25,469 nt of DNA, from positions 1 through 25,469 of IMG/VR virus record IMGVR_UViG_3300027963_003007. One strand, written 5' to 3'. Of the stretch, positions 301 through 22,105 are shown piece by piece. Both the position numbers and the translations under genes were made by a program. This DNA comes from a virus. Under the pieces are notes generated by a model. That model did not search any database, was not told the origin of the DNA, and saw only the letters and a program-made list of their open reading frames with translations. Numbering within the stretch: position 1 is the stretch's first letter; each line of letters begins with the position of its first letter.

Positions 301-960
301 ATGCTATCGCATTTAGATCGCGTTTTGTTTCCAGACCGCTGTGAGGTAATTGAAGTCGTACGCTCACAGCGGTATGTCTATTCTATTTTTAAAAATGGTT
401 CTTCTAGTTTACGTATTGCAGCAAGAAAGAACAATTGGCGAATTAAAATAAATGAACAAATTGCACAGCTCAATGAAATTGATGTGGTTATTAGACGTCC
501 ACTAGAAAGATTTGTTTCTGGAATCAATTCTTACGTTCAAATGACCAAGCGAGATAATCCTACGCTCGATACTGCAACAATATTATGGTTTGCAAAAAAT
601 TATTTGTTTTTAAATAGACATTATTGTCCTCAGTTGCATTGGTTATTGCATCTGTCTACATATACAAACAGTGATGCTCGATTAAATTTCATAGGAATGG
701 ATAGCATTGAATCTATTACCAGTTTACATGTACCACCAAACGGTGTGGATCCAGTGACACTGGAGATTCGAGAACAACTATTAAATTTAAAAAATAATGA
801 AATGTATTTGAGAATAGACGAGATTATATTCAATTGTATCGGAAAATCATTGACATTTGAACAATTAATTCAGCATATTAAAACAGTTGATTTTGATGCA
901 TACAATTATATAATTGGTCATTCTCAAAAAATTTTAAATCCAACTTATGTATTGTCCTAG
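301..960 (+). CDS. Sulfotransferase-family protein
   Basis: A 219-residue protein with the two PAPS-binding signatures of sulfotransferases. Residues 31-36 (KNGSSS), after a beta-strand, match the 5'-phosphosulfate loop. Residues 61-73 (DVVIRRPLERFVS) match the 3'-phosphate motif, with R65, R70 and S73 as the expected phosphate contacts. It would transfer a sulfuryl group from PAPS to a hydroxyl or amine, usually on a carbohydrate; the acceptor is unknown. It starts three bases after the preceding stop codon and its last 14 bases overlap the next gene, so it is probably translated as part of one operon with the radical SAM and SDR genes. The C-terminal half is divergent. There is no signal peptide or membrane segment, so it is probably cytoplasmic. 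The gene is AT-rich: 18 of 60 bases are G or C in the sample 601-660. Confidence 0.7.
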   Translation: MLSHLDRVLFPDRCEVIEVVRSQRYVYSIFKNGSSSLRIAARKNNWRIKINEQIAQLNEIDVVIRRPLERFVSGINSYVQMTKRDNPTLDTATILWFAKNYLFLNRHYCPQLHWLLHLSTYTNSDARLNFIGMDSIESITSLHVPPNGVDPVTLEIREQLLNLKNNEMYLRIDEIIFNCIGKSLTFEQLIQHIKTVDFDAYNYIIGHSQKILNPTYVLS

Positions 961-1822
961 ATTAGATCATTTTGTTCGATTTAATTCTAATGGCACCGTT
1001 AGTCGATGCGGACACATGGTCAACGCACCACAGTTTGCCACGCTTGAGGCAATGGAATCCAGTGAGTGGTTGATCAATGCTCGACACCTAATGACCAGCG
1101 GCCAGTGGCCTGATGAATGTGTGAGATGCCAAGAAACTGAACCCAACAGTATAAGACAGTATGCTATTGAGTTAGACAAACAAACCGTACAGACAGATTG
1201 GCTGCAAGTGGGCGGTGTATTAGATAATTTATGCAATGCCGCTTGTCAGACCTGTAACCAAAACCTAAGCACCAGAATAGGCAGTTTGACAGGTCCCGGA
1301 TTTCCTATTATCAATAACATTGAACAATTTTATAACCTGCCACAAGAGCGTATTGTTCACTTGGATATCAATGGTGGCGAACCCAGTTACAGTAAAAATT
1401 ATAAACGACTATTAAAAAATTTGCCGCCTAATCTCAAAACTTTACGACTCAATACAAATTGTAGCACAGTATTGACTGAACTGGTTGATATTGCCGCAAA
1501 AGGTATTGAAGTTACTGTTACTGCAAGTTGTGATGGCGTTGGATCTGTTTTTGAATTTGTTCGTTGGCCAATACTGTGGCCGGATTTTTACCGCAATCTA
1601 ATGCAGTATAAAACAATGCCAGTCAAATTAAATTTATGGACCACAGTCAGCATATTAAATGTAGACGACCTACTCAACATTCAAAAGTTTGCCCAAGAAC
1701 ACAGTATTGAACACAGTTACGCTTATTTAACTACACCTATTGAGTTGAGTGTTGATAATACCGATGCTGTGGCAAGAGAAGCATATATAGCAAAACAAAA
1801 ACAAATTAGAGGCATGCAATGA
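947..1822 (+). CDS. Radical SAM protein with N-terminal twitch-like cysteine region (rSAM 1 of 6), short form
   Basis: A 291-residue radical SAM enzyme. The 4Fe-4S/AdoMet motif CX3CX2C is at C96, C100 and C103, and the GGEP motif that contacts AdoMet is at 143-146. Before the radical SAM core lie four cysteines (C3, C21, C58, C61) in the same order as in the five paralogues; in such N-terminal twitch proteins they are expected to hold an auxiliary iron-sulfur cluster. A later segment with the CDG...FEFVRWP...W pattern is shared with the family. The start at 947 keeps C3 and overlaps the sulfotransferase gene; its stop overlaps the next start in ATGA. It ends about 70-130 residues earlier than the other copies and lacks the C-terminal D-x-x-R segment that most of them have. 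The reaction and substrate are unknown. Confidence 0.85.
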   Translation: MYCPRLDHFVRFNSNGTVSRCGHMVNAPQFATLEAMESSEWLINARHLMTSGQWPDECVRCQETEPNSIRQYAIELDKQTVQTDWLQVGGVLDNLCNAACQTCNQNLSTRIGSLTGPGFPIINNIEQFYNLPQERIVHLDINGGEPSYSKNYKRLLKNLPPNLKTLRLNTNCSTVLTELVDIAAKGIEVTVTASCDGVGSVFEFVRWPILWPDFYRNLMQYKTMPVKLNLWTTVSILNVDDLLNIQKFAQEHSIEHSYAYLTTPIELSVDNTDAVAREAYIAKQKQIRGMQ

Positions 1823-2364
1823 AAATAGCAATCACAGGACATACCGCCGGCATAGGACAAGCTCTTGCCAAGGAATACGTTCTTGATGGTCATGAAATTG
1901 TAGGGCTAAGTCAACGCGAAGGCAACAACATTCGCAACACACCTAAAATTTGTGATCAGATCGAACCGTGCGATGTATTTGTTAACAATGCTCAAGGCAG
2001 CTACTCTCAGACTGAATTGTTGTTTGAAATGGCCAAACGTTGGTCCGGCACCGGCAAACATATCATTGTTGTCAGCACTATGATGACACAAGAACCTGTA
2101 TCGTCTTTGTCTGGACTTGACATGGACCATTATCGTTTGCAAAAAGTTACACTAGAAGAAGCAGTGCGCCAAATACGACATCGCCGACTCAAAGTAAAAA
2201 TTACCATAGTTCGCCCTGGCAACATTGCCACAAGCCCAGATAAAACTGTTCCTCCTGCGGCTGATGTTGACAACTGGGCAAGAACATTGTTAGATCTACT
2301 AAACATGGCTACAAATAATAATTTAACAATTCCAGATATATCATTAGGGCCACTGAACCGATGA
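1819..2364 (+). CDS. Short-chain dehydrogenase/reductase (SDR), compact
   Basis: A 181-residue Rossmann-fold protein. The N-terminal TGHTAGIG (residues 6-13) is the classical SDR dinucleotide-binding TGxxxGxG motif. NNAQ at 56-59 matches the NNAG motif, S86 is the likely catalytic serine, Y105-x3-K109 is the YxxxK catalytic pair, and VRPGNIATS near 131-139 matches the PG motif after strand 6. It is shorter than the usual 230-260 residues because the C-terminal substrate-binding part is reduced. It would catalyse an NAD(P)-dependent oxidation, reduction or epimerisation. Both ends overlap neighbouring radical SAM genes through ATGA junctions, implying translational coupling and probably a shared pathway. 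The same gene order recurs at 19309-22105. Confidence 0.88.
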   Translation: MKIAITGHTAGIGQALAKEYVLDGHEIVGLSQREGNNIRNTPKICDQIEPCDVFVNNAQGSYSQTELLFEMAKRWSGTGKHIIVVSTMMTQEPVSSLSGLDMDHYRLQKVTLEEAVRQIRHRRLKVKITIVRPGNIATSPDKTVPPAADVDNWARTLLDLLNMATNNNLTIPDISLGPLNR

Positions 2365-3515
2365 ATCCAAAAGATGTATTGACAAACAAACATTTTTGTC
2401 CTATGCCCTGGACAGGATTGATGTATAACTTTGATGGCAAAGTTAAAAACTGTATTCGCAGTGATGGTAAAACTGGCCTCTTGGGTGATATTAAAAATTT
2501 ACCTATAGAAGAAATACTGTTAGGACCTATTAATGTAACTAAACAAACAAATATAATAGCCAATGCTCCAGCCGCCGGCTGTCATACTTGTTATGAGCTA
2601 GAACATGGTAAAGAAGGGTTTGATATTATTAGTGATAGAATTTTCTACATACGAGAATTTAAAAAAACTCCTCTTGATACCTATCGAGTCAATAATTTTG
2701 ATTTACAAACTATCGATGTACGCTGGACAAATTTGTGTAATTTTGCTTGTGTGTATTGTAGTCCTGAATTTAGCAGCAAATGGGCCAACGAATTAAATGC
2801 TGATATATCCACACCATTGGATGAACAACAAGCAAAATTTAAAGAATACATATTTAAACATGCCAAGCAATTGAAGCACGTTTATCTTGCCGGCGGCGAA
2901 CCATTACTAATGAAAGAAAATTTAGAACTGCTGCAAGAATTAAATCCCGACGTTAATTTAAGGATAAACACTAACCTTAGCAAGGTGGATACTGGTGTGT
3001 TTGATGCAGTATGTCAATTCAAAAATGTCCATTGGACAGTGAGCGTTGAAACTATTGAACAAGAATTTGAATACATTAGATTTGGTGGCCGTTGGTCTGA
3101 TTTTTTAGATAATCTAAATCGAATCAGACAACTGGATCATAAAATAAGTTTTAACATGTTATGGTTTTTGCTAAATTATGACACAGTATTTGAATGTGTT
3201 GATTACCTTAAAGTATTAGGATTCCACAACAACAGTTTTATTATTGGAGCACTACTAACTCCGGATTACCTAAATATTAGACATTTACCGGAAAATGTGT
3301 TACACTTGTTAGAGTTAAAACTACAATCAAAGATCGACGAGAATCCAGGATATCTGCTTGAAGATAGTTATCGGAACATGTTACACTATATAACGCAACC
3401 GATTGAAAAGAATTTGACAAATTCATTCAACCAACTGGCAGTAATGGATCAACGGCGTGGAGTAGACAGCAGTAAGATTTTTACAGAATTATACAAACTT
3501 AAAGAAGGAAAATAA
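2361..3515 (+). CDS. Radical SAM protein with N-terminal twitch-like cysteine region (rSAM 2 of 6)
   Basis: A 384-residue member of the same family. The N-terminal cysteines are C13 (in FCPMPW), C31, C74 and C77 (GCHTC). The radical SAM motif is C126, C130, C133, and AGGEP falls at 177-181. The conserved later segment is present, but the usual S-x-D-G is replaced by SVET before EFEYIRFGGRW. The C-terminus has the D-x-R-R segment (MDQRRGVDSSKIF) seen in rSAM 3, 5 and 6. The start overlaps the SDR stop codon in ATGA, and the stop lies two bases before the uvsX start. It is the last gene of the sulfotransferase-rSAM-SDR-rSAM cassette. No transmembrane or secretion signal is visible. Confidence 0.88.
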   Translation: MNPKDVLTNKHFCPMPWTGLMYNFDGKVKNCIRSDGKTGLLGDIKNLPIEEILLGPINVTKQTNIIANAPAAGCHTCYELEHGKEGFDIISDRIFYIREFKKTPLDTYRVNNFDLQTIDVRWTNLCNFACVYCSPEFSSKWANELNADISTPLDEQQAKFKEYIFKHAKQLKHVYLAGGEPLLMKENLELLQELNPDVNLRINTNLSKVDTGVFDAVCQFKNVHWTVSVETIEQEFEYIRFGGRWSDFLDNLNRIRQLDHKISFNMLWFLLNYDTVFECVDYLKVLGFHNNSFIIGALLTPDYLNIRHLPENVLHLLELKLQSKIDENPGYLLEDSYRNMLHYITQPIEKNLTNSFNQLAVMDQRRGVDSSKIFTELYKLKEGK

Positions 3516-3517
3516 TC

Positions 3518-4585
3518 ATGGCAAAACCATTTGACATCAGCAAGTTCCGCAAGGACATCACTAAAAGCATTGAAGGTTTGAGCATTGGATTTAATGATCC
3601 AACTGATTGGATCTCAACAGGCAACTTTGCCTTGAATTACCTTATATCAGGAGACTTTAACAAAGGTATTCCACTTGGTAAAGTAACTGTGTTTGCCGGA
3701 GAGTCGGGTGCAGGTAAAAGCTACATTTGTTCTGGTAACATTGTTCGACATGCACAAGAGCAAGGTATTTTTCCTATTCTAGTCGATACAGAAAACGCAC
3801 TTGATGAAAAGTGGTTACATGCACTTGGCGTAGACACCAGCCCAGAAAAGTTGCTCAAGCTCAACATGGCCATGATTGATGACGTTGCTAAAACAATTTC
3901 AACATTTATGATCGACTATAAGGCATTACCAGACGGTGACCGTATGAAAGTGTTATTTGTTATTGACTCGTTGGGTATGTTGTTGACTCCAACCGACATG
4001 AATCAATTTGAAGCGGGTGATTTAAAAGGTGACATGGGTCGTAAGCCCAAAGCACTTACTGCACTTGTTCGTAACTGTGTAAACATGTTTGGTAGTTATA
4101 ACGTAGGTATGGTATGTACCAATCACACTTATGCGTCACAAGATATGTTTGATCCAGATGATAAAATCTCAGGTGGTCAAGGCTTTATCTATGCATCAAG
4201 TATTGTGGTTGCTATGAAAAAAATGAAGCTGAAAGAAGATGAAGATGGTAATAAAGTGTCTGAAGTAAATGGTATTCGTGCCGGTTGTAAGATTATGAAA
4301 ACACGATATGCTAAACCGTTTGAAGGTGTACAGGTTAAGATTCCTTATGCTACAGGTATGAGTCCATATTCGGGTATGGTTGATTTAGCAGAGAAAAAGG
4401 GCCTGCTTAAGAAAGAGGGCAACAGTTTGGTTTACACCACACTGGATGGAGAGATTATCAAACAGTTCCGTAAGAAGTGGGAAGCCAATGATGATGGATG
4501 CCTGGACAAAATTATTTCAGAGTTTGGTAAACAAGCTGTTGAAGCCGCTGAGCTAAGTATTGATGAAGACACTGCGGAGGAATAA
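3518..4585 (+). CDS. uvsX: UvsX, RecA-like recombinase
   Basis: A 355-residue RecA/Rad51-family strand-exchange protein (T4 UvsX is about 390 residues). The Walker A GESGAGKS is at 61-68, followed by a Walker B-like VLFVIDSLG and an SGGQGF segment in the L2/DNA-binding part. The N-terminal FDISKFRKDITKSI and the TGNFALNYLISGDFNKGIP segment resemble T4-type UvsX. It forms a filament on single-stranded DNA and drives recombination-dependent replication with UvsY and gp32. A Shine-Dalgarno AAGGA at 3505-3509 supports the ATG at 3518. The acidic C-terminus is typical of phage recombinases. Its final codons carry the GGAGG that serves the next gene. Confidence 0.97.
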   Translation: MAKPFDISKFRKDITKSIEGLSIGFNDPTDWISTGNFALNYLISGDFNKGIPLGKVTVFAGESGAGKSYICSGNIVRHAQEQGIFPILVDTENALDEKWLHALGVDTSPEKLLKLNMAMIDDVAKTISTFMIDYKALPDGDRMKVLFVIDSLGMLLTPTDMNQFEAGDLKGDMGRKPKALTALVRNCVNMFGSYNVGMVCTNHTYASQDMFDPDDKISGGQGFIYASSIVVAMKKMKLKEDEDGNKVSEVNGIRAGCKIMKTRYAKPFEGVQVKIPYATGMSPYSGMVDLAEKKGLLKKEGNSLVYTTLDGEIIKQFRKKWEANDDGCLDKIISEFGKQAVEAAELSIDEDTAEE

Positions 4586-4587
4586 GC

Positions 4588-4836
4588 ATGAGTATAGAAT
4601 TAAGCAAAGAAATTTGGGATGAACTCAAACGTTATGTAAATGTAGTGGATCGAGACGAAGCTGCAGAAACACTGATATCAGTATTAATTGACAATGACGT
4701 AAGTGCCGACGAAATCAAATCCACATTTAAAAGCGATAGTGACATCAAAAAAGCCTTGGCTAGTTATGTTGAAGATCATGACGACGTAGTCGACGAAGAC
4801 GACGAAGACGACTTTGAAGAAGACGACGACTATTAA
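4588..4836 (+). CDS. Small acidic protein following uvsX
   Basis: An 82-residue protein with a predicted helical domain (roughly 1-60, beginning SIELSKEIWDELKRYVNVVD) followed by an almost purely Asp/Glu tail of about 20 residues. I recognise this as a type of small conserved protein found next to uvsX in T4-like aquatic phages, but I know of no assigned function. A strong Shine-Dalgarno GGAGG at 4576-4580, inside the end of uvsX, fixes the start. The stop overlaps the next start as TAATG. The acidic tail could mimic DNA or contact a DNA-binding partner such as the recombinase; that is inference. Repeated GAC/GAA codons at 4776-4833 form a low-complexity DNA stretch. Confidence 0.8.
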   Translation: MSIELSKEIWDELKRYVNVVDRDEAAETLISVLIDNDVSADEIKSTFKSDSDIKKALASYVEDHDDVVDEDDEDDFEEDDDY

Positions 4837-6092
4837 TGTCTGACAAATATTTTCCAATTAAAAAAGGAGTTGCTTGTCAGCTTAAATGGACGTGGAATAC
4901 CATTAAGTTACAGGAAGGGACGTCACAATCTTGCCATCGTGTTGACCCATTATTTTTAACTCCTGAAAATTTTAACAATTTCCATAACGACGAAAAGTGG
5001 CTGGAACAACGAAAACTGCAACTGGCTGGAAAATTTCCGCAGGGTGGTTGTCAGTATTGCGAAACTATTGAAAAAGCAGGTGGTGTCAGCGATAGAATGA
5101 CCCATTTAAAAATACCAAATCTATATCCACTAGAGTTAGATACAGATCCAGAAGCTATACACGTTACTCCTCGAATTTTAGAAGTATTCCTTGACAATGT
5201 ATGCAATCTAAGATGCATCTATTGTGATGAATCGAACAGTTCTCGTATAGAAGCAGAAAATAAAAAATTTGGCTACATAAAAGAATTTAAAAATCTAATG
5301 CCCGTACCTCGTCACAGCAATTTTGACGCATTGGTTGAAAAATTTTTTGCATATTTAGAAAATAACTATTCTGGATTGAGAAGGTTACAAATATTAGGTG
5401 GCGAGCCTTTTTATCAAAAAAGTTTTGATCGTTTGATTGCCTTTGTAAAACAAAACACCAACCCAGACCTTGAATTAAATATTGTTACCAGTTTGGCTAT
5501 ATCAAAACCAAGACTTGAGGAATTTGTTGAATCAATGAAACAATTATTGATACAACGAAAAATAGGACGTTTGGATATCATGGTCAGTTTAGATTGTTTT
5601 GGGGCCGAACAAGAATATGTTCGTTACGGGTTAGATTTAAAACAACTAAAAGAAAATTTTGAATTTTTAGTCGATCAAAAATGGATCATGCTCAATGTCA
5701 ACAGCACAATTACGTCGTTGACTATTAAAACCATGCCAGCAATGATTGAATATCTTAATAATTTTAGAAAGCAAAGAAAAATACATCATAGTTTTGGCCA
5801 TGTTGATAATAGACCGTGGCTACATTGTAGTGCGTTTGGTGCTGGATTTTTTGATTCAGAGTTCAATGAAGTGTTGGCTTGCCTGCCAGAAAAAACTGAC
5901 TGGGATCAGAATATTAAAGATTATATGCATGGCTTACACAAGTCATTGTCTTTGTCTGAAATTGACTATGCAAAAATAAGCCAACTCAAAAGATTCCTTG
6001 CTGAAATCGATCGACGAAGAAATCTAGACTATACAAAAGTTTTTCCTTGGTTAGATCAATACTTTATAGAAAATCAAGAATATGTGGTATAG
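4836..6092 (+). CDS. Radical SAM protein with N-terminal twitch-like cysteine region (rSAM 3 of 6), longest form
   Basis: A 418-residue protein, the longest of the six. The N-terminal cysteines are C14, C33, C72 and C75 (GGCQYC), followed by E-T-I-E-K and S-D-R as in the paralogues. The radical SAM motif is C123, C127, C130 and GGEP is at 178-181. The later segment reads SLDCFGAEQEYVRYG, and the C-terminus has IDRRRNLDYTKVFPWL. It sits between the uvsX pair and uvsY, overlapping upstream as TAATG and downstream by 11 bases with uvsY. Such placement makes it co-transcribed with recombination genes although nothing in the protein suggests a DNA function. It is the only copy not paired with an SDR and not behind its own promoter. 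Confidence 0.87.
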   Translation: MSDKYFPIKKGVACQLKWTWNTIKLQEGTSQSCHRVDPLFLTPENFNNFHNDEKWLEQRKLQLAGKFPQGGCQYCETIEKAGGVSDRMTHLKIPNLYPLELDTDPEAIHVTPRILEVFLDNVCNLRCIYCDESNSSRIEAENKKFGYIKEFKNLMPVPRHSNFDALVEKFFAYLENNYSGLRRLQILGGEPFYQKSFDRLIAFVKQNTNPDLELNIVTSLAISKPRLEEFVESMKQLLIQRKIGRLDIMVSLDCFGAEQEYVRYGLDLKQLKENFEFLVDQKWIMLNVNSTITSLTIKTMPAMIEYLNNFRKQRKIHHSFGHVDNRPWLHCSAFGAGFFDSEFNEVLACLPEKTDWDQNIKDYMHGLHKSLSLSEIDYAKISQLKRFLAEIDRRRNLDYTKVFPWLDQYFIENQEYVV

Positions 6093-6534
6093 TAAAGTTG
6101 TAGCTGATCTAGGCAATATTCCAGATTTTATCACGCATTACGAACACGAACTCAACGAGGCCAAACGCGACTGTCGAGTTGGTGGACTTGTTGAAAAAAA
6201 TATTACAGCTTTGCCCGGCATCACAGAACATAGATTTAATCAACTGCAAGAAATTGAAGCAGTATTAAATTATCTCAATATACAACTACGCAAAATACGC
6301 CGCAAGCATTTTCAAAAATATCTCGAAGGTTATGCTCGTGCGCTGACTAGTAGAGATGCTGAAAAGTATGTGGATGGTGAGGACGAGGTCATTGAATTTG
6401 AAACCTTAATCAACGAAGTTGCATTGCTACGTAATCGATATTTAGGTATTCTTAAAGGAATGGAAAGTAAAAACTTCATGCTCGGGCACATTGTAAGATT
6501 ACGAGCAGCTGGTATGGAGGATGTTCAAGTATAA
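6082..6534 (+). CDS. uvsY: UvsY-like recombination mediator
   Basis: A 150-residue, charged, largely helical protein (T4 UvsY is 137 residues). The C-terminal part, YLGILKGMESKNFMLGHIV followed by RLRAAG, matches the T4 UvsY C-terminus, where YWGIL and a KSRGFAIKHIQDMR segment follow a helical central region. UvsY loads UvsX onto gp32-coated single-stranded DNA as a hexamer. The start overlaps the end of rSAM 3 by 11 bases, and its stop overlaps the methyltransferase start as TAATG. Location near uvsX supports the call. Sequence divergence from T4 is high, so a profile search would be the proper confirmation. Confidence 0.75.
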   Translation: MWYSKVVADLGNIPDFITHYEHELNEAKRDCRVGGLVEKNITALPGITEHRFNQLQEIEAVLNYLNIQLRKIRRKHFQKYLEGYARALTSRDAEKYVDGEDEVIEFETLINEVALLRNRYLGILKGMESKNFMLGHIVRLRAAGMEDVQV

Positions 6535-7283
6535 TGTTTGCACACCCGGGCGACAGCCATCAACACAGTCTTGAAACTCTAAATCAATTATACGAGTATG
6601 ATGACTTCATGCTGAGTCTCCGCACCGTGGTTGATCTTGGATGTGGCTCTGGGGACGATTTGGTCTGGTGGGCCACACGAACAACTCGTGATGACAATCC
6701 TCAGCCGTTGAATATCAAATGTTACGGCATTGACCTAGGCGGAAATCCGTCGGTTGCTAAAGAACATGAAAATATTTCATATCAGCAATATAATTTTGAA
6801 GACACAATCGTTGTACCAGATGGTGGGTTTGATGTGCTATGGTGTCACGATGCGTTTCAATATGCCTTAAATCCAATACAAACTCTTAGTAATTGGTGGC
6901 ATATTGCCAGTCCTGGTGGCATGCTATCACTGACTGTGCCAGTGACTCAACAAATACATCGTCGACAACTTGCTTATACGTTGCCCAATGGACACTATTA
7001 TCATCACACCATGGTTAGTCTCATGTATATGTTGGCCACAGCTGGATGGGATTGTGGCGCTGGATTTTTTAAACAAATGCCTTCGGAGCCGTGGATACAT
7101 GCGGTGGTTTACAAAAGCATCCAGCCTCCTCAAAATCCACACAACACCAACTGGCACACACTGGTAGAGCAGAATCTTTTGCCCCAGTCTGCTGTGAAAA
7201 GCATTTATGCTCACAGTGCTCTAAGACAACAGGATTTAGTTGTTCCTTGGATCGACGGCAGTTTATTGAGCATGGCCGTTTAA
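6534..7283 (+). CDS. Class I SAM-dependent methyltransferase
   Basis: A 249-residue protein with a Rossmann methyltransferase fold. Motif I is VVDLGCGSGDD (residues 32-42), the acidic motif II is YGIDLGG, and FDVLWCHDAFQYALNP resembles motif IV/post-I of small-molecule type methyltransferases, followed by SPGGMLSLTVP. It lacks the DPPY or PC-type motifs of DNA methylases, so DNA modification is less likely than methylation of a metabolite, sugar or lipid. The start overlaps the uvsY stop (TAATG). It is the last gene before the late-type promoter at 7289. The C-terminal 90 residues are unassigned. Confidence 0.8.
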   Translation: MFAHPGDSHQHSLETLNQLYEYDDFMLSLRTVVDLGCGSGDDLVWWATRTTRDDNPQPLNIKCYGIDLGGNPSVAKEHENISYQQYNFEDTIVVPDGGFDVLWCHDAFQYALNPIQTLSNWWHIASPGGMLSLTVPVTQQIHRRQLAYTLPNGHYYHHTMVSLMYMLATAGWDCGAGFFKQMPSEPWIHAVVYKSIQPPQNPHNTNWHTLVEQNLLPQSAVKSIYAHSALRQQDLVVPWIDGSLLSMAV

Positions 7284-7288
7284 TGGGC

Positions 7289-7301: not shown

Positions 7302-8063
7302 ATGAAAAAAATAGTAATAGTAAGCGGCGGATTTGATCCGGTCCATTCGGGACACATTAAACTGATAAAGGAAGCCCGTTTATTGGGCGATATGTTGATT
7401 GTAGGAATCAACAGCGATGAGTGGCTGACTCGCAAAAAAGGTCGTGCCTTTATGCCGTGGAACGAAAGATTATGTGTATTAAACAACTTATCTTCAGTAG
7501 ACGAAGTATATACTTTTGACGATGAAGACGGAACTGCTTGCCATTTGCTACGTCAAGTTCGAGCACATTATCCTAATGATAAAATTATTTTTGCAAACGG
7601 TGGTGATCGCACACACTCAAATATTCCAGAAATGGATGTCAAAGACGACAACTTACAATTTGCATTTGGTGTCGGTGGATTTGACAAAGCAAATAGTAGT
7701 AGTTGGATTTTGGAAGAATGGAAAGCCCCCAAGGCACTACGCCCTTGGGGCTATTACCGAGTATTGCATGATGTACCAGGCACCAAAGTTAAAGAACTTA
7801 CTGTTATGCCCGGACAACGACTTAGTATGCAACGACACCGAGACCGTGCCGAGCATTGGCATGTTGCCGAAGGTACTGCCACAGTTTACGGTATAAATAG
7901 AAAAAGCGATCAAGAGCTTGTAGGCACATTTGGTCCGCACACGCATATACATATCAATTGTGAAGAATGGCATCAGTTGTGTAACGAAACTGACGCTCCG
8001 TTAAAAATTGTAGAAATACAATACGGTGACAATTGCGTTGAAGAAGATATTGAACGCCGATAA
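7302..8063 (+). CDS. Cytidylyltransferase-like domain fused to a mannose-6-phosphate isomerase type II cupin
   Basis: A 253-residue two-domain protein. Residues 1-135 are a nucleotidyltransferase of the HxGH class: GGFDPVHSGH at 9-18 is the nucleotide-binding signature, and FANGGDR and SSSW near 97-103 and 132-135 sit where later motifs of the family lie. Such enzymes make CDP-glycerol or ADP/CDP-sugars. From RPWG (147-150) onward it matches the cupin domain at the end of type II phosphomannose isomerases, with metal-ligand candidates H179, H185, H187 and E190. The fusion suggests synthesis of an activated sugar or polyol phosphate. It follows the methyltransferase but has its own late promoter. 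A strong DNA hairpin (7724-7752) lies at the domain junction. The exact substrate cannot be deduced. Confidence 0.85.
   Translation: MKKIVIVSGGFDPVHSGHIKLIKEARLLGDMLIVGINSDEWLTRKKGRAFMPWNERLCVLNNLSSVDEVYTFDDEDGTACHLLRQVRAHYPNDKIIFANGGDRTHSNIPEMDVKDDNLQFAFGVGGFDKANSSSWILEEWKAPKALRPWGYYRVLHDVPGTKVKELTVMPGQRLSMQRHRDRAEHWHVAEGTATVYGINRKSDQELVGTFGPHTHIHINCEEWHQLCNETDAPLKIVEIQYGDNCVEEDIERR
7724..7752 (+). repeat. GC-rich inverted repeat inside the cytidylyltransferase/cupin gene
   Basis: AGCCCC (7724-7729) pairs with GGGGCT (7747-7752) and AAGG (7731-7734) pairs with CCTT (7743-7746), with one bulged C and an 8-base loop. No T-run follows, so it is not a standard terminator. It encodes the linker just before the RPWG motif. 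Confidence 0.6.
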
Positions 8064-10316: not shown

Positions 10317-11465
10317 ATGAAAAAATATTGTGTATTACCATTTATAACTGTCAGGATTGAAGACAATAAAAATTTAAATTCAATGGGATTTAGGCCGTGT
10401 TGTTTTTATAAAGACACAACCCTGCCAGCTTTTACAAATGTTAATGACTATTTACATTCTGATTTTTTAAAAAATCTTCAACAACACCTACTTACTCAAG
10501 ACGAATTGCCTCCTGGATGCAATAGTTGTTCTACTATTGAATCAAAAAATCAACTTAGTGTAAGACAACTTAAAAATAAATTTTTCCAAAACCTAGTGTT
10601 GCAACAGACAGCTATACAAGAATTAGATATTTTTCCATCAAACACTTGTAATTTAGCTTGTATAATGTGCGGCCCAAAACATAGTAGTTCGGTCGCTGCA
10701 GAACAAAAAAAATTAGGATGGATTACTGAGATCTATAATTTTGATGAGACAGATTTAATTCTAGACTCCTTAAAACAACTATCAAACTTACAATACATTC
10801 ATATTGCCGGCGGTGAATTTTTTTACTCCAAACATTGTTTAAAAATATTGGAAGCAATTCAGACGGCAAAAATACCCAATGTTGAGTTTATAACCAATGG
10901 AACTATTTGTAATGACAAACACATTTCTATTTTAAAAACGTTTGAAAATTTAAGTCTTCGTTTTAGTATAGATGGCATTAATGATTATTATGACTTTATT
11001 AGATATCCTGCAAAGTGGAATGAGGTTAAAACAAATATTTTAAATTATAAAAATCAATTACCTAATGCACACTTGGAATTGGTCATGGTGGTGCAACCAT
11101 TGAATATTTTTGGTATACTAGAATGGATTCAGTGGGCGAACGATAATAATATAGAAACACACTGGCAATTGATAGGTGGAGATATGGGATGGGGAGCAAT
11201 TACAGCCGAAGAAAAACAATCAGCAGCTGATTTTATTTTTTCTAATTATAAAAAATTTAAGTTAAACCAAAAACAACTGGTCACAATGCTTAATTACGCA
11301 AAAAATACCATACCTAATCTTCCGTTTACAGTCCAAGAAAGAGAACAATTTATATTTAAATTGGTTCAACTTTGTAAACACAGAAAGATACTAACCGAAA
11401 CGGTAATCAAATTACTTGGACCGTGGAAAGAACTTCAAGAAATAATTGCAATGGAACTGTCATAA
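10317..11465 (+). CDS. Radical SAM protein with N-terminal twitch-like cysteine region (rSAM 4 of 6), late-expressed
   Basis: A 382-residue member of the family. The N-terminal cysteines are C5, C28-C29 (PCCFYK, shared with rSAM 6), C68 and C71 (GCNSC). The radical SAM motif is C111, C115, C118. The AdoMet-binding GGE motif at 165-168 ends in F instead of the usual P. The later segment reads SIDGINDYYDFIRYPAKW. The C-terminus differs from rSAM 2, 3, 5 and 6 and has no clear D-x-x-R segment. The gene stands alone between a terminator with late promoter on one side and the uvsW promoter on the other. It is strikingly AT-rich (14 of 60 G or C at 10921-10980, against 30 of 60 at 12241-12300 in uvsW), which suggests separate acquisition. 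Confidence 0.87.
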   Translation: MKKYCVLPFITVRIEDNKNLNSMGFRPCCFYKDTTLPAFTNVNDYLHSDFLKNLQQHLLTQDELPPGCNSCSTIESKNQLSVRQLKNKFFQNLVLQQTAIQELDIFPSNTCNLACIMCGPKHSSSVAAEQKKLGWITEIYNFDETDLILDSLKQLSNLQYIHIAGGEFFYSKHCLKILEAIQTAKIPNVEFITNGTICNDKHISILKTFENLSLRFSIDGINDYYDFIRYPAKWNEVKTNILNYKNQLPNAHLELVMVVQPLNIFGILEWIQWANDNNIETHWQLIGGDMGWGAITAEEKQSAADFIFSNYKKFKLNQKQLVTMLNYAKNTIPNLPFTVQEREQFIFKLVQLCKHRKILTETVIKLLGPWKELQEIIAMELS

Positions 11466-15715: not shown

Positions 15716-15724
15716 GTCTACGGA

Positions 15725-15732
15725 TATTTACC
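15725..15732 (-). promoter_or_regulatory. Variant late promoter (GGTAAATA) on minus strand
   Basis: The reverse complement reads GGTAAATA, identical to the element at 8070-8077. It lies nine bases before the ATG of the minus-strand gene and diverges from the element at 15762. Confidence 0.55.
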
Positions 15733-15761
15733 AGACCAATTTCGCCAGGTCTAGCAAAGGC

Positions 15762-15769
15762 GCTAAATA
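15762..15769 (+). promoter_or_regulatory. Variant late promoter (GCTAAATA)
   Basis: GCTAAATA has the TAAATA core and lies six bases before the ATG at 15776. With the minus-strand element it forms a divergent late promoter pair in a 60-base gap. Confidence 0.55.
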
Positions 15770-15775
15770 TATTGT

Positions 15776-16921: not shown

Positions 16922-16933
16922 CACCAAACTCAC

Positions 16934-16962
16934 TTGCAGTCAGTAGATAAATCTGCTATAAT
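16934..16962 (+). promoter_or_regulatory. Sigma70-type promoter of the primase-helicase operon
   Basis: TTGCAG (16934-16939), 17-base spacer, consensus TATAAT (16957-16962). The ATG of the primase lies six bases after the -10 box with no Shine-Dalgarno site, so a leaderless mRNA is predicted. Confidence 0.82.
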
Positions 16963-16968
16963 CGTAGC

Positions 16969-17931
16969 ATGATTGATGTGATTTCTTTTCTTCCGAATAA
17001 AAGAAAACAAACAGCTAGTGGTTGGATAAGTTTCAACGCACCCTGTTGTGTTCATCGCGGAGATACGCAAGACAAACGACAGCGCGGCGGCATTAAGCCC
17101 AACACAGATGGTGCATGGAGTTACCACTGTTTCAATTGTGGCTATACTGCAAGTTTTGTATTGGGTCGTAACCTAACATTTAAAGCTCGTCGATTACTTG
17201 AATGGCTAAATGTGCCACAAGAAGAAATTGAGCGCATTAATCTTGAAAGTCTAAAGCATCGATCAATTGAAGGCTTGTTGGGTGAACGTCAAGCGATCAT
17301 GCAACAACTGCAAAGTATTGCATTCGAAGATCAAGATCTGCCAGCTGACACACAGCCACTCAATGACGCTGCACGAGAATATTTACAGAATAGGCGCATA
17401 TCTTTAGACTACCCATTCTTGTATAAAACAATGCCTAGACCTGGTGTTGTAATCCCGTTTACCTATGATAATCAAGTGGTAGGACACACCACACGGTTCT
17501 TAGACAATCGCACACCTAGATATATCCAAGACATACAATCTGGCTATGTGTTTGGAACAGATTTGTTGCACGATAACTGGACCAATGTTATTGTGCTGGA
17601 AGGAGTGTTTGATGCGCTCAGTATCAATGGCCTAGCTGTGTTACATGCAGAGATCAATGATGCCCAGGTCAGATTGATACGTAGCCTAGGACGTGAGGTT
17701 ATTGTAGTGCCAGATCAAGACGAAGCTGGTATGCGGTTAGTAGACCGTGCAGTAGAACTAGGCTGGTCAGTGAGTATGCCCAACTGGCCTGCTGACGTCA
17801 AAGATGTAAACGATGCTGTGATTCGTTGGGGCCGACTGGCAACTTTGGTAACTATAATGCAAGCCCGAGAAACTAGTAAAATTAAAATAGAACTAAGGAA
17901 GAAACAACTTGTTAAAAGATTACGGACTTGA
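16969..17931 (+). CDS. 61: gp61-like DNA primase
   Basis: A 320-residue primase (T4 gp61 is 342). A zinc-binding domain at the N-terminus has C26, C27, H29 and the CFNC pair C54, C57. The TOPRIM catalytic core follows with E211 in VIVLEGVFDAL and D249/D251 in VVPDQDEAG. The region 163-200 (PFTYDNQVVGHTTRFLD) corresponds to the start of the TOPRIM-associated fold. It makes RNA primers for lagging-strand synthesis together with the gp41 helicase, which is the next gene and overlaps by 23 bases. The final 30 residues are basic. The start is defined by the promoter six bases upstream. Confidence 0.93.
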   Translation: MIDVISFLPNKRKQTASGWISFNAPCCVHRGDTQDKRQRGGIKPNTDGAWSYHCFNCGYTASFVLGRNLTFKARRLLEWLNVPQEEIERINLESLKHRSIEGLLGERQAIMQQLQSIAFEDQDLPADTQPLNDAAREYLQNRRISLDYPFLYKTMPRPGVVIPFTYDNQVVGHTTRFLDNRTPRYIQDIQSGYVFGTDLLHDNWTNVIVLEGVFDALSINGLAVLHAEINDAQVRLIRSLGREVIVVPDQDEAGMRLVDRAVELGWSVSMPNWPADVKDVNDAVIRWGRLATLVTIMQARETSKIKIELRKKQLVKRLRT

Positions 17932-19312
17932 TGTCCAACGACTGTTCTTAGAAATGATGTTGCAGGACGCAGAAAGTTATGTGCGTGTTCAAAACATTTA
18001 TAATCCAGAAAACTTTGATCGCAGTCTACGTCCTGCGGCTGAGTTTATTGCTCGACACAGCGACCAGCATAAAACACTGCCCACAGTAGAACAGATCAGC
18101 GCCAGCACAGGTGTTCGACTCAACAACATTCCAGACTTAAACGAAGGGCACTTTGAATGGTTCATGGATGAGTTTGAAGGCTTTACTCGTAGACAAGAAC
18201 TAGAGCGTGCAATTTTAAAATCAGCAGACTTGCTAGAAAAAGGCGAGTATGACCCTGTAGAGAAATTAATCAAAGATGCGGTACAAATATCACTTACTAA
18301 AGACATGGGCACGGATTACTTTAGTGATCCTAGTGCTCGCATTAACAAATACTTCAACTCAGGTGGACAAGTAAGCACCGGCTGGCCACAGATGGACAAG
18401 ATCTTGTATGGTGGATTTAGTCGAGGTGAACTGAATATTTTTGCTGGTGGATCCGGATCGGGTAAAAGTTTGGTTATGATGAACATAGCATTGAGTTGGT
18501 TACAAGCAGGACTAAGTGGCGTGTATATCAGTTTAGAACTCAGTGAAGAACTGTGTGCATTGCGAACCGATGCCATGTTGGCAGGAATGAGCACTAAAGA
18601 GATTCGCAAAGACATTGATCAAGCAACACTTAAAGTTAGATTGGTGTCAAAGAAAACTGGACAATATCGTATCAAGGCATTGCCAGCACAAAGCAATATT
18701 AATGATATTCGTAGTTACATCAAAGAAGTGCAAGTGCAGACCGGCATCAAAATTGACTTTGTCATGTGTGATTACTTGGACTTGTTGATGCCGGTCAGTG
18801 CTAAAGTCAGTCCAAATGACTTGTTTGTTAAAGATAAGTATGTGAGTGAAGAACTACGTAACTTGGCCAAAGAACTTAATGTGCTGTTTGTGACAGCAAG
18901 TCAATTGAATCGTAGTGCTGTAGAAGAGATTGAATTTGATCATAGTCATATTTCAGGTGGTATCAGTAAGATTAATACTGCTGACAATGTTTTTGGTATT
19001 TTTACAAGCCGTGCTATGCGTGAGCGTGGAAAGTATCAGATACAGTGCATGAAGAGTCGTAGTAGCACGGGTGTAGGCATGAAAATTGATTTGGACTACA
19101 ATATCGAAACCATGCGTATTACAGATACAGGTGAAGATGCAGGTCCGGTTAATTCGTTTGCTAAAGGTAATCTATTAGATAGTATTAAAGCAAAAAGCAC
19201 AATGGTCAGTAAAGAAACTGTAGATGCTGACACTGGGGAAATTAGCAAAGTCACTGCCGATGTGCAAAGTGCCAAATTGAAACAGTTACTAGGACAAATT
19301 AAACAGTCATGA
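17909..19312 (+). CDS. 41: gp41-like replicative DNA helicase (DnaB family)
   Basis: A 467-residue hexameric helicase (T4 gp41 is 475). The N-terminal domain (about 1-130) is helical. The RecA-like domain has Walker A GGSGSGKS at 180-187, VYISLELSEELCALR (motif H1a), Walker B-like DFVMCDYLDLL and a following FVTASQLNRSA (H3), as in DnaB/gp41. It unwinds the fork 5' to 3' and recruits the primase. The start is TTG at 17909 with a Shine-Dalgarno AAGGAAG at 17895-17901, inside the end of the primase gene. The stop overlaps rSAM 5 in ATGA, tying the following radical SAM cassette to helicase translation. Confidence 0.95.
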   Translation: MLKDYGLDVQRLFLEMMLQDAESYVRVQNIYNPENFDRSLRPAAEFIARHSDQHKTLPTVEQISASTGVRLNNIPDLNEGHFEWFMDEFEGFTRRQELERAILKSADLLEKGEYDPVEKLIKDAVQISLTKDMGTDYFSDPSARINKYFNSGGQVSTGWPQMDKILYGGFSRGELNIFAGGSGSGKSLVMMNIALSWLQAGLSGVYISLELSEELCALRTDAMLAGMSTKEIRKDIDQATLKVRLVSKKTGQYRIKALPAQSNINDIRSYIKEVQVQTGIKIDFVMCDYLDLLMPVSAKVSPNDLFVKDKYVSEELRNLAKELNVLFVTASQLNRSAVEEIEFDHSHISGGISKINTADNVFGIFTSRAMRERGKYQIQCMKSRSSTGVGMKIDLDYNIETMRITDTGEDAGPVNSFAKGNLLDSIKAKSTMVSKETVDADTGEISKVTADVQSAKLKQLLGQIKQS

Positions 19313-20445
19313 AAGATCGAAAATATTTCTGTTATGAAATATATAAAAATCTTGCTATATGGTCACATAACGGTCATTTGGCATACAACCCCTGTAGTTT
19401 TTTCAGCGGGTTTATCAAAGAATCAGACTCGTTTGATTTAGATAGCATTTGGAATGGGCCCGAACGAGCAGAATTAAAACGTTGTGTAGAAACAGATACT
19501 CCGATTCCTGGGTGTAGGTCCTGTTACCACGCTGAAGAACATGGTCTAATGAGCAGACGCAAAAGTAGCCAACTACTATACGAAAACTATCATCATGACA
19601 CCAATATTGATTTAGATGCTCCGCAAGGTTTAGATTACAGCGTAGGAAATCTCTGTAATTTAAAATGTGTCGTATGTGGGCCCCACAATAGCACAGCCTG
19701 GGTATCCGATTATCAGACGCTTTACCCTCTTCATCCAATTGATCAATTTAAGTATGAAAAATTTAATCAACTTGAAACATTTGACCCAGGGTTACTTAAA
19801 AATATAAAAAGTTTACACATCCACGGCGGCGGTGAACCATTGATGAGTAATAATCATATTAATTTACTTAAAGAAATTAAAAAAGTTAAAGGATTAAGTG
19901 ATATTCGAGTATTTTACAATACCAACGCTACACAACGAGCGTCCCAAGAATTGTTAGAATTATGGAAGGAATGTCAATTAATTGAACTATATTTCAGCAT
20001 CGACGACATAGGCAACAGATTTAATTATCAACGTACCGGTGCTGATTGGAATGCTGTAACAGATAATATAAAGTGGTATATAGAAAACATGCCACATAAC
20101 CATATGTTTAACATAAATTGCACCTGGAGTTATTTAAATTTGTATTATCTGCCAGACCTGGTTGATTGGTATCGAGTTAATTTGTCAACCAATCGTTACG
20201 GCGATCCTGTAAATTTGATTTTTCAGCGTGTTATTGGAAACTTTAATATTTTGCATTTAAATGATACTGTTAAAAACATTTTAATTGAAAGATTTTTGAA
20301 TTACCCACAGTTGACAGAACTAGTAAACAGTATCAAAACTAGCGATAAAAATCATCAACTCTTCTGGGACGAAATTGAAAAAATCGATCAGGTAAGACAA
20401 ACTAGTTATAAAAACTTATGTCCTGAATGGAGTCAATTATTATGA
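19309..20445 (+). CDS. Radical SAM protein with N-terminal twitch-like cysteine region (rSAM 5 of 6)
   Basis: A 378-residue member of the family. The N-terminal cysteines are C8, C29, C69 and C72 (GCRSC); the region SIWNGPERAELKRCV matches the usual helix before the GCxxC pair. The radical SAM motif is C116, C120, C123 and GGGEP is at 173-177. The later segment is SIDDIGNRFNYQRTGADW, and the C-terminus has IDQVRQTSYKNLCPEW. The start overlaps the gp41 stop (ATGA) and the stop overlaps the SDR start (ATGA). The first gene of the second rSAM-SDR-rSAM cassette. Base composition is more AT-rich than that of gp41, suggesting an insertion downstream of the helicase. Confidence 0.88.
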   Translation: MKDRKYFCYEIYKNLAIWSHNGHLAYNPCSFFSGFIKESDSFDLDSIWNGPERAELKRCVETDTPIPGCRSCYHAEEHGLMSRRKSSQLLYENYHHDTNIDLDAPQGLDYSVGNLCNLKCVVCGPHNSTAWVSDYQTLYPLHPIDQFKYEKFNQLETFDPGLLKNIKSLHIHGGGEPLMSNNHINLLKEIKKVKGLSDIRVFYNTNATQRASQELLELWKECQLIELYFSIDDIGNRFNYQRTGADWNAVTDNIKWYIENMPHNHMFNINCTWSYLNLYYLPDLVDWYRVNLSTNRYGDPVNLIFQRVIGNFNILHLNDTVKNILIERFLNYPQLTELVNSIKTSDKNHQLFWDEIEKIDQVRQTSYKNLCPEWSQLL

Positions 20446-21005
20446 ACATGCTATGTTCCGGAAACCCAAATCATATTACTGTAGCCAGTGCGGTAAAAAA
20501 TTATTTTCCAACAGCCAAGTTCGCCAGTCGTGCCACTGGATATGATTTAAGATTCTGGGATGCTGGCAGCGAAACTTATTTTAGAGAACAAATTATTAAC
20601 TATGATGTATTTGTTAATAGTTCATTTATTTGTGGTGGTGGCCAACTAGCTCTATTAGAAGCAACACACGAGGAATGGGCAAAAGCTGGAATTCGTGGGC
20701 ATATTATTAATATAGGTAGCACTTCTGAATATCTAGGTGTAAATGATGCTCAAGCCAGAGATCAAGTTTATGCCAAATACTCAATACAAAAGAGAGCCCT
20801 CAAGGACCGTAGCTTACAGTTAAATGGTTTAAATAATATCAAAACTACACACATTATTGCTGGCGGATTAAATGATGGAATACCCGGGCACGAAAACTGG
20901 TTAGAGTTAACGCATATTGCTGACACTGTTGCCTGGGCCATTGAGCATCCGTGCTTGATACCATTGATAGAGATCAGGGCAAACTGTTTAACGCCAATTG
21001 AATAA
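20442..21005 (+). CDS. SDR-like protein with degenerate cofactor-binding loop
   Basis: A 187-residue protein with the overall pattern of a short SDR. IINIGSTSEY (88-97) holds the catalytic-serine position S93, and YSIQK (113-117) is the YxxxK pair; HIIAGGLNDG matches the segment after strand 6. In contrast with the SDR at 1819, the glycine-rich TGxxxGxG is replaced by CSGNPNHITVA, so cofactor binding may be altered or lost. The ATG at 20442 overlaps the rSAM 5 stop as ATGA and is preferred over an in-frame ATG at 20427. It lies 20 bases before rSAM 6, in a duplicate of the layout at 947-3515. Confidence 0.75.
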   Translation: MNMLCSGNPNHITVASAVKNYFPTAKFASRATGYDLRFWDAGSETYFREQIINYDVFVNSSFICGGGQLALLEATHEEWAKAGIRGHIINIGSTSEYLGVNDAQARDQVYAKYSIQKRALKDRSLQLNGLNNIKTTHIIAGGLNDGIPGHENWLELTHIADTVAWAIEHPCLIPLIEIRANCLTPIE

Positions 21006-21029
21006 TAAAAAGGCCCTGACCTAAAATGC
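21001..21029 (+). repeat. Leader repeat, copy 1 (before rSAM 6)
   Basis: Matches 22131-22159 at 25 of 29 positions, with the ATG at the same place (base 26). It begins AATAATAAAAAGG. The two copies flank rSAM 6. The AAAAAGG part may act as ribosome-binding site. Confidence 0.75.
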
Positions 21030-22105
21030 CAAATCAATTTTGTAGATACCTATCCAATGGGTATTCGTTTAATGTAATCAAAAACAATTCTGTCACAGTA
21101 GGGCCTTGTTGTTTCTATAAGAAAATTCCGTTTGATTCTCAAATATTACAAAATCGTAAATTGCAATTTGAAACAATCAACAGTTGGACCGACGGATGTT
21201 CTGCCTGTCAAACATTAGAAAATGCAGGACAACAAAGTTTGCGGCAGTCTGGACCAGACTGGATTGATGATTTTGAAACGTCTCAAGACCCAGTGACAAT
21301 TGATATTAATTTAGACAAAAATTGCAATGCGGCCTGCGTAATTTGTGATAAAGGCAGCAGTTCGTTATGGGAAAAAGAAGAGTCAAAATTAACCAATGGA
21401 ATAATAAATATCAGACCTGAAAATTCCATTGACCGATTAATTGATCAAATTGTCAATACAGTATCGTTGACAAAATTAAAATATGTTAGATTTTTTGGTG
21501 GCGAGCCGTTATTTACAGACACACATTTAAAATTTATAAAACATATACCACATCCAGAACAAGTAACACTGCACTATACAACCAATGGTTCTATCTATCC
21601 CAACGATGCAGTTCTCGCCGAATGGAGAAAATTTAAAACAATAATTTTTGCCGCAAGTTTAGACGGCATTGACGAACAATTTGATTATGTGCGCTGGCCG
21701 TTGCCTTGGAGTAAAGTTAGTAAAAATTTAATTCGTTTGAGAGAAAACAAAGACATATGGAATTTGATGTTTCGAGTAGAATTTACAGCTAATTTTCTTA
21801 ATACATATTACTTTGATCGATTAGAAACTTGGATAAAAGATAACTTAAACACCAATTTATTTGGAGACCCAACAGAAATTAACATTCATCAGTGTTGGGG
21901 CACATGGGCCTTAACAAAAATGCCCCCAACAATTCGAGAGTTAGTGCAAGCAAAATATCCAGCAGAGCATATAATACATAAAATAGTAGCAAACTTGTTA
22001 GATTCTGAGTCGCTAAACGATTGGCAACAATTTGTTAAAACTTGGGACGCCCGTAGAAACAACAGTTGGCAAACAGCATTTCCAGATTTGGTTCAGTGTA
22101 TTTGA
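21026..22105 (+). CDS. Radical SAM protein with N-terminal twitch-like cysteine region (rSAM 6 of 6)
   Basis: A 359-residue member of the family. The N-terminal cysteines are C6, C28-C29 (PCCFYK, as in rSAM 4), C58 and C61 (GCSAC). The radical SAM motif is C100, C104, C107 and GGEP is at 158-161. The later segment SLDGIDEQFDYVRWPLPW is close to that of rSAM 1 and 4, and the C-terminus has WDARRNNSWQTAFPDL. The gene is bounded by two copies of a 29-base leader repeat (21001 and 22131), so it looks like a discrete cassette. It follows the degenerate SDR gene by 20 bases. Substrate unknown. Confidence 0.88.
   Translation: MPNQFCRYLSNGYSFNVIKNNSVTVGPCCFYKKIPFDSQILQNRKLQFETINSWTDGCSACQTLENAGQQSLRQSGPDWIDDFETSQDPVTIDINLDKNCNAACVICDKGSSSLWEKEESKLTNGIINIRPENSIDRLIDQIVNTVSLTKLKYVRFFGGEPLFTDTHLKFIKHIPHPEQVTLHYTTNGSIYPNDAVLAEWRKFKTIIFAASLDGIDEQFDYVRWPLPWSKVSKNLIRLRENKDIWNLMFRVEFTANFLNTYYFDRLETWIKDNLNTNLFGDPTEINIHQCWGTWALTKMPPTIRELVQAKYPAEHIIHKIVANLLDSESLNDWQQFVKTWDARRNNSWQTAFPDLVQCI

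Follow-up and report, generated by a model that had tools for sequence, protein, structure and literature searches.

Why should a T4-type virus carry, among its replication genes, six genes for radical S-adenosylmethionine (radical SAM, rSAM) enzymes of one architecture? The question is raised by the IMG/VR virus record IMGVR_UViG_3300027963_003007, a stretch of 25,469 bases that is probably a fragment and that we analysed over its whole length (hereafter the window). Its source is a T4-like bacterial virus known solely via environmental DNA, and its six rSAM open reading frames (ORFs) lie amid T4-type replication genes, all on the plus strand (as is every other window feature given below with coordinates), exactly where a preliminary description had placed them (947, 2361, 4836, 10317, 19309, and 21026). 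The answer that we tentatively favor is that the six are oxidoreductases of the rSAM type whose BtrN-type auxiliary [4Fe-4S] domain is permuted to the N-terminus, and which would act within an exchangeable sugar-tailoring set by BtrN-like sugar oxidation and so serve glycan remodelling. Among the candidate roles put forward in the preliminary description, glycan modification appears to be the best supported by sequence comparison. Radical SAM genes are abundant in aquatic T4-like phages and, in the accessible parts of the reports concerned, have been noted without a defined reaction (PMC5332604, PMC7029224). If our reading is right, phages alter surface sugars by radical chemistry, and the bacterial homologues of these enzymes gain a first hypothesis.

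Six radical SAM genes in six lineages

All six genes match the NCBIfam model NF033640 far beyond chance (E 1.8e-36 to 1.2e-70). The curated cut-off of 170 bits is exceeded by five, namely the N-terminal-twitch enzyme of group R0 (2361..3515, 384 residues, 239 bits) and the enzymes of groups R3 (4836..6092, 418 residues, 193 bits), R15 (10317..11465, 382 residues, 192 bits), R5 (19309..20445, 378 residues, 223 bits), and R2 (21026..22105, 359 residues, 174 bits). The short N-terminal-twitch enzyme of group R1 (947..1822, 291 residues), which is without the longer C-terminal part of the other five, reaches 126 bits and is by score a relative rather than a member; PF04055 is likewise over its cut-off in five of the six genes, with no match for gene 947. 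Identity of the other window rSAMs to gene 947 is 20-25%.

An identical plan had been claimed for all six. Alignment upheld this for the cysteine ligands, the CxxC pair with its glutamate, the CX3CX2C motif (present in 6/6), and the GGE motif, the invariant positions in the numbering of gene 947 being C3, C58/C61 with E65, C96/C100/C103, and G143-G144-E145, with 18-24 residues between the first and second N-terminal Cys. The final S-x-D-G...Y-x-R...W segment proved looser than claimed: gene 2361 has S-V-E for S-x-D, each of genes 947 and 10317 has F-x-R for Y-x-R, and gene 4836 lacks the W. The four N-terminal Cys and CX3CX2C are also invariant in an alignment of 56 proteins. Across 331 distinct family proteins of at least 240 residues, gathered with an iterated profile from phage loci and the window and including contig-end fragments, the CX3CX2C columns are Cys in 330, 331, and 331 proteins, the lone gap lying in a fragment, and the Fe-S ligands are thus intact, as first described. 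Eight of these 331 proteins (groups 18-21, e.g., L204:6456, L210:8605, and L206:15238; none in the window), which come from the same phages, keep CX3CX2C, are without the N-terminal Cys set, and possibly form another rSAM subfamily.

A search for SPASM features (PF13186; a C-terminal domain of seven Cys with two auxiliary clusters) found no C-terminal Cys set shared across the six-gene alignment, the sole signal being a sub-threshold match at the N-terminus of gene 2361 (18.4 vs. 21.5 bits). On the viperin model NF038283, whose cut-off is 180 bits, none of the six genes scores above 36, which rules out viperin identity. Viperin and MoaA are distant sequence and fold neighbors of the family, but these scores make viperin-type nucleotide chemistry, antiviral or counter-defensive and directed at competing phages, a highly improbable role; to our knowledge, moreover, neither an N-terminal cluster domain nor dehydrogenase and sulfotransferase-like partners of the kind described below are viperin features.

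The 331 proteins fall into 35 groups at 40% identity, and the window genes belong to six of them. In a tree of 103 proteins, built with "quick" support only from the 6 window genes, 31 phage-group representatives above 120 bits, 4 proteins of Vibrio phage K566, and 62 bacterial rows (of 77 thinned from 125 over 185 bits), with two rows being contig-end fragments of others, the window genes are scattered over six positions. At each position a window gene is joined by phage orthologs of its own, and all six changes are forced by starred branches. The six had been described as paralogous; the tree shows no phage-specific burst and puts each in its own lineage, intermixed with bacterial ones.

Ratios of nonsynonymous to synonymous substitution (dN/dS; NG86, pairs with dS 0.05-1.5, a range outside which most pairs fell) gave medians of 0.103 for R1 (group of 100, 426 pairs), 0.093 for R0 (group of 111, 1341 pairs), 0.119 for R5 (10 members, 10 usable pairs), and 0.182 for R2 (19 members, 67 usable pairs). 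For R3 the median was 0.088 and the maximum 0.446, from 15 members with only 5 usable pairs, and for R15 the value was 0.128 from the only pair of a two-member group; scans with these single proteins returned only a 100% identical contig for 4836, and three relatives, two of them partial, for 10317. The proposal that the copies are held by selection is thus borne out, with the ortholog groups under purifying selection at medians of about 0.09-0.18, weakly so for 4836 and 10317. The highest median, 0.426 from 7 pairs, belongs to group 4, which lies outside the window. Recent duplication with relaxed selection is ruled out by dN/dS far from 1 and by the six tree positions. Decay of gene 947 is ruled out as well, because a group of 100 with a median of 0.10 makes its short form a conserved subfamily.

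A four-gene cassette in an exchangeable slot

Genes 947 and 2361 sit in a tightly packed block of four, overlooked in the preliminary description, which begins with a sulfotransferase-like protein (ST; 301..960, 219 residues) and continues with R1, a short-chain dehydrogenase/reductase (SDR) termed SDRa (1819..2364, 181 residues), and R0. The slot that holds this cassette is bordered on the left by the C-terminal end of a gp32-type single-strand DNA-binding protein (1..297) and on the right by the UvsX recombinase (3518..4585; phrog_97, E 2e-69). The partial gp32 belongs to a cluster (C4) with full-length relatives and 93 members, whose representative L086:4944 matches the single-strand DNA-binding family phrog_1192 (E 2.3e-68) and also phrog_224.

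Adjacency was counted in 138 non-redundant phage loci with relatives of the window genes (47 of 185 were dropped as sub-stretches), drawn from the best 80 loci per query. ST is directly 5' of R1 in 98 of 101 cases, R0 has SDRa directly 5' in 101 of 110 cases and uvsX 3' in 94; the gene 3' of R1 is SDRa in 73 of 101 cases and the gene termed c15 in 20. Median overlaps are 14, 4, and 4 nt at the ST-R1, R1-SDRa, and SDRa-R0 junctions, and no gap longer than 90 nt was found among 98, 73, and 101 such junctions, respectively. Since its genes overlap, the block looks translationally coupled and has no room for a precursor peptide, which rules out a precursor of a ribosomally synthesized and post-translationally modified peptide (RiPP) inside the cassette. 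We infer that ST-R1-SDRa-R0 works as one unit in the gp32-uvsX slot. Cluster c15 (L072:2642-3187 and relatives) is a 181-residue gene with no PHROG match that by eye resembles a 2-oxoglutarate/Fe oxygenase.

SDRa matches PF01370 at 25.1 bits (cut-off 20.9) and comes just under the cut-off of PF00106 (26.1 vs. 26.6 bits), and its TGxxxGIG-type motif and its YxxxK are each kept in 102 of 103 members. ST has no match in Pfam, NCBIfam, or PHROG; of its candidate PAPS-binding motif residues, K31, R65, and R70 are invariant in 52 sequences and S73 is conserved. Its structural model has a predicted local distance difference test score (pLDDT) of 90.7, and in a structural second look (VIA) rows 1-30 were all sulfotransferases, with a best Z of 5.7 to 3-OST-5 and the first other protein at Z 4.3. 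Foldseek returned nothing significant for ST (best E 0.12, threshold E<=0.001), and a profile search of the PDB gave chance-level matches only.

UvsX was also used as a query without reference to the rSAMs, and in 61 of its best 80 loci gp32 was followed by uvsX. Fifteen of these 61 sites are empty, 9 hold exactly ST-R1-SDRa-R0, and the other 37 comprise one with the block and an extra gene, one with ST-R1 only, and 35 with other ORFs, of which 8 hold only short ones (<105 residues). Among 61 uvsX loci preceded by 1500 nt or more of sequence, BLAST gave an R0- or R1-like match in 17 (all four genes in 11) and none in 44. The cassette is accessory, exchangeable cargo, and its membership of the core genome of this phage clade is ruled out. 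It offers a small defined test object (two rSAMs, an SDR, and an ST) with a predicted reaction type, for which the empty-site relatives are natural controls.

The embedding of rSAM genes in a replication region could point to hypermodification of the phage's own DNA bases or nucleotides against restriction, and some phages do use radical SAM enzymes for thymidine hypermodification. However, the cassette is absent in many close relatives with the same uvsX, and the thymidylate-synthase family (PF00303), which we take to include the phage hydroxymethylases, was found in none of six records (the window and five of 65-340 kb), a weak absence as all six are possibly incomplete. We regard this role as quite improbable.

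Other cargo of the slot includes, once, a protein whose best solved match is GDP-4-amino-4,6-dideoxymannose N-formyltransferase (E 4.9e-31), and a protein matching amidinotransferases, inosamine-phosphate amidinotransferase included (best E 1.2e-8). The cargo of L297 looked by eye like an Asp/Asn hydroxylase, and searches with it gave weak matches only.

A second slot lies directly 3' of the DnaB-like (gp41-type) helicase (17909..19312; phrog_19, E 2.9e-72), which forms its left border and lies directly 5' of R5 in 10 of 11 cases and of R2 in 15 of 18. In the window R5 is followed by an SDR-like protein, SDRb (20427..21005, 192 residues), found 3' of R5 in 8 of 11 loci. SDRb has no Pfam or PHROG match, carries YxxxK in 7 of 8 members, and has no classical TGxxxGIG. 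Its homologues adjoin family rSAMs in two Bdellovibrionota metagenome-assembled genomes (MAGs; L242, 8e-18, and L226, 6e-17), the relative in L226 showing a sub-threshold match to PF13561 (2.8e-5, 24.3 vs. 27 bits). An SDRb relative flanked by orthologs of 19309 and 21026 also occurs on the 3-kb contig L257, which is assigned to a bacterial MAG but is probably a misbinned phage fragment.

Candidate chemistry and substrate

BtrN oxidizes an aminocyclitol by two electrons, giving an inosose, and has an auxiliary [4Fe-4S] cluster with four Cys ligands, according to the accessible parts of PMC9012708 and PMC6231123. The N-terminal auxiliary-cluster domain predicted in the preliminary description is supported here, having four Cys and resembling the twitch domain of BtrN in two of six profile searches. 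With profile A11 (N-terminal; 3 phage and 23 bacterial rows), searched against 177,635 PDB sequences at E<=1, only two BtrN entries matched (E 0.0011 and 0.0013), and the match runs through the C-terminal domain of BtrN with all four Cys aligned. The full-length phage profile A6 also matched BtrN (E 1.8e-7 for the whole sequence), most strongly where its residues 8-82 align to 164-242 of BtrN. The structural model of gene 2361 (pLDDT 94.2) has BlsE (Z 12.0), MoaA (11.7), and SkfB (11.3) as its nearest solved folds, with PFL-AE and anSME near and DesII listed; BlsE and DesII act on sugars.

Relatives outside the window place the family beside glycan genes in several cases. Among 50,697 catalogued phage records (INPHARED), queried by tblastn with three family members only, 2 matched gene 2361, 3 matched a gene of the related record G001, and 2 matched gene 19309, the Vibrio phages K566 and K567 being found by each of the three queries. 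K566 (L221, OZ196521; 11965-18707 and 21984-23250) has four NF033640-like rSAMs, three of them annotated as radical SAM, interleaved with two GT8 glycosyltransferases and one weak GT4-like glycosyltransferase and followed by PagP (annotated) and LpxC (PF03331, 1.3e-40). The region is of a lipid A/lipopolysaccharide type, in a sequenced vibriophage.

In bacteria, a scan of species genomes found 64 loci, by title largely Bdellovibrionota and often with tandem arrays (L222, L224, L246, L249, and L253, with 7, 9, 6, 11, and 4 profile hits per locus, some weak or cut; the 9 of L224 are in a Bdellovibrionota locus and the 11 of L249, a Rickettsiales MAG, fall in about 12 kb). Eight long ORFs, picked by length and not at random, join the rSAM to ABC_tran and Wzt_C, to a sulfotransferase and a class III aminotransferase, to a sulfotransferase and a methyltransferase, or to a methyltransferase, the others being one double rSAM, one ORF that combines a Gfo/Idh domain and a different rSAM, and two without a partner. 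The Synechocystis salina ORF is a fusion of sulfotransferase, rSAM, and class III aminotransferase, and the zetaproteobacterial L253:6714-9275 unites an O-antigen-type exporter ATPase (ABC_tran and Wzt_C) with an N-terminal-twitch rSAM, an ABC2 permease being nearby.

The window itself encodes, at 7302..8063, an HldE-like adenylyltransferase domain (PF01467, 5.6e-14) fused to a ManC-type mannose-6-phosphate isomerase cupin (PF01050, 8.9e-23), both over their cut-offs, with a match to phrog_7878 (7.8e-28) and with NCBIfam TIGR02199 and TIGR01479 under theirs. This unusual domain pairing belongs to a cluster of 39 phage proteins. Taken together, the glycosyltransferases of K566, the bacterial fusions, the formyltransferase and amidinotransferase relatives in the slot, and gene 7302 suggest a role in sugar chemistry.

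Our proposal for the cluster binding, substrate, chemistry, and biological role of the six is as follows. The rSAM would make a 5'-deoxyadenosyl radical at its CX3CX2C cluster, the radical would take a hydrogen atom from a hydroxyl-bearing sugar carbon (nucleotide-linked, lipid-linked, or within a glycan), and the four-Cys auxiliary cluster would accept the other electron, so that a ketone results in the manner of BtrN. Reduction of this ketone by the SDR would amount to a net epimerisation, and the sulfotransferase-like protein would sulfate the product, while the remaining rSAMs may treat other positions or sugars. An rSAM that makes a ketone and a partner that consumes it would fit both pairings, that with an SDR in the phages and that with an aminotransferase in Synechocystis; during butirosin synthesis, amination of the ketone follows the BtrN step. 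The target could be the host surface polysaccharide during infection, with phage receptors changed as a result, or virion glycans. A wider scheme, conceivable although we rate it as doubtful, is modular phage-borne radical sugar editing, in which rSAM oxidases and ketone-consuming partners would be swapped as units in fixed T4-like slots to give each phage its own set of epimerised and sulfated sugars on host or virion glycans; if true, it would explain the dozen such genes in some genomes.

Several observations weigh against sugar oxidation of this kind. The BtrN match depends on the profile: the N-terminal profiles A8 and A9 gave no PDB match, A10 gave chance-level matches (prion protein etc.), with PqqE and ChlB at E 0.4-0.7 and no BtrN, the six-sequence full-length profile A1 (limit 0.01) gave no BtrN, and A11 is mostly bacterial. 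The fold ranking does not separate BlsE from the peptide-acting SkfB, anSME, and SuiB or from MoaA, and the putative sulfotransferase assignment of gene 301 is drawn from motifs and weak fold scores. Partners are unevenly present, as only 3 of 18 R2 copies have SDRb upstream and the window R3 and R15 are without an adjacent SDR. GT8 was found in only two of the six records and was not found in the window record, other glycosyltransferase families having had no systematic search. Finally, of 20 bacterial neighbors taken at random from 170 eligible, 3 were plainly glycan-related (two GT2 of one locus and one ABC2 permease), 3 were of a tailoring type (two methyltransferases and one SDR), 6 were unrelated, and 8 were without a Pfam match.

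In another reading the rSAMs are maturases, with residues of a RiPP-like peptide or of a protein of the virion or host as their target, a role that we consider rather unlikely but that is the strongest rival to sugar oxidation because peptides are the substrates of many enzymes of this architecture, as they are of many functionally characterized SPASM/twitch enzymes. Several of these appear in the accessible part of PMC6231123, SkfB, anSME, and SuiB stand near the top of the fold ranking, and a gene with tail-fibre/virion PHROG matches lies upstream of the rSAM run of G001. On the other hand, the partners are of a sugar type (SDR, ST-like, and once, at the slot, a formyltransferase), and the tight junctions of the cassette leave no space for a precursor gene, although a larger protein substrate is compatible with this. 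Where no profile match is stated, labels such as GT8-like, SGNH, and 2-oxoglutarate oxygenase, applied to slot cargo and to genes of G001, were given by eye.

Related genomes and known systems

Multiple rSAM genes recur in large related records, with 14 matches to NF033640 in G001 (182 kb; 11 over cut-off), 13 in G002 (340,172 bases; 10 over), and 15 in G026 (145 kb; 12 over). These totals include 20-30-bit matches that are probably other rSAM proteins, and 14 of 14 control genomes match too, none over cut-off. The three records share groups 13, 12, 7, 10, and 14 in one order, in a near-tandem run, and that of G001 includes an O-carbamoyltransferase (Pfam) as well. G002, which has two A-type carrier genes, may be a concatemer or chimera, since its size is large for a T4-like phage.

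Such gene sets have elsewhere been read as Fe-S- or SAM-linked auxiliary metabolism, that is, support of the host SAM cycle, of pyrroloquinoline quinone (PQQ), or of Fe-S homeostasis. In their accessible parts, PMC5332604 places 12 rSAM genes alongside an A-type carrier, cas4, grx, and paaD, and PMC7678222 proposes SAM-cycle and PQQ roles; in our data an A-type carrier (PF01521) is present in three of six large related records. Nevertheless, the carrier may do no more than provide the rSAMs with their clusters, NF033640 rather than PqqE is the best NCBIfam match, six distinct lineages are unlike the boosting of a single pathway, and MetK (PF02773) was found in none of those six records, an absence that is weak since the records are possibly incomplete. 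We judge this explanation improbable, and sugar oxidation remains the reading that we prefer.

The remaining window genes, called as simple ORFs and not by a gene finder, complete the T4-type setting. A DNA helicase and a primase have PHROG matches (phrog_47 among the T4-type markers), and a UvsY-like gene matches phrog_231 and is sub-threshold in Pfam, so that gp32 (judged via a relative of the partial window gene), UvsX, UvsY, primase, and gp41-type helicase are all present. A SAM-dependent methyltransferase at 6534..7283 exceeds the cut-offs of five methyltransferase families, PF08241 (E 4e-8) among them.

The system had been put forward as a candidate for an undescribed one, which does not stand for it as a whole, as multi-rSAM T4-like phages and phage rSAM cassettes are in print (PMC5332604, PMC7029224, and PMC7678222, each in its accessible part). 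These accounts describe the T4-like marine genome TARA_ERS488813_N000010, of 183 kb with 12 rSAM genes (PMC5332604); cassettes of rSAM genes that pelagimyophages carry in a region for host recognition, where glycosyltransferases are often present, the freshwater pelagimyophages being said to be without rSAM genes (PMC7029224); and rSAM proteins in Lake Baikal methylotroph phages (PMC7678222). Our literature search, outside which preprints and most subscription journals fell, found no paper that deals with the cassette, with its slot, or with the permuted twitch relation.

The window is thus like TARA_ERS488813_N000010 and the pelagimyophage cassettes in being a multi-rSAM T4-like case; those are marine and, in the accessible parts of their reports, come without analysis of the rSAM family or its partners. 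The NF033640 (N_Twi_rSAM) family has the same Cys pattern and takes in five of the genes over its cut-off, its model description naming no reaction, while gene 947 is a short divergent form and the R1/R0 cassette with ST and SDR is unlike the published accounts that we found. Phage O-antigen-modifying (seroconversion) genes are comparable in the proposed alteration of host surface sugars during infection; the known ones use glycosyltransferases and acetyltransferases, and we know of no seroconversion system with an rSAM or SDR. BlsE, DesII, MoaA, and SkfB, which act on a nucleoside-sugar, a dTDP-sugar, GTP, and a peptide, respectively, share the rSAM core with the model of gene 2361 (Z 10.8-12.0) at 15% identity or less. 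With BtrN (4M7S/4M7T; 2-deoxy-scyllo-inosamine dehydrogenase), whose substrate is a sugar-like cyclitol according to the accessible part of PMC9012708, the window enzymes show, in two of six profile searches, a likeness of their four-Cys domain to the twitch domain; the likeness is at the level of the domain only, and the cluster domain of BtrN lies C-terminal to the rSAM core, whereas that of the window rSAMs is N-terminal.

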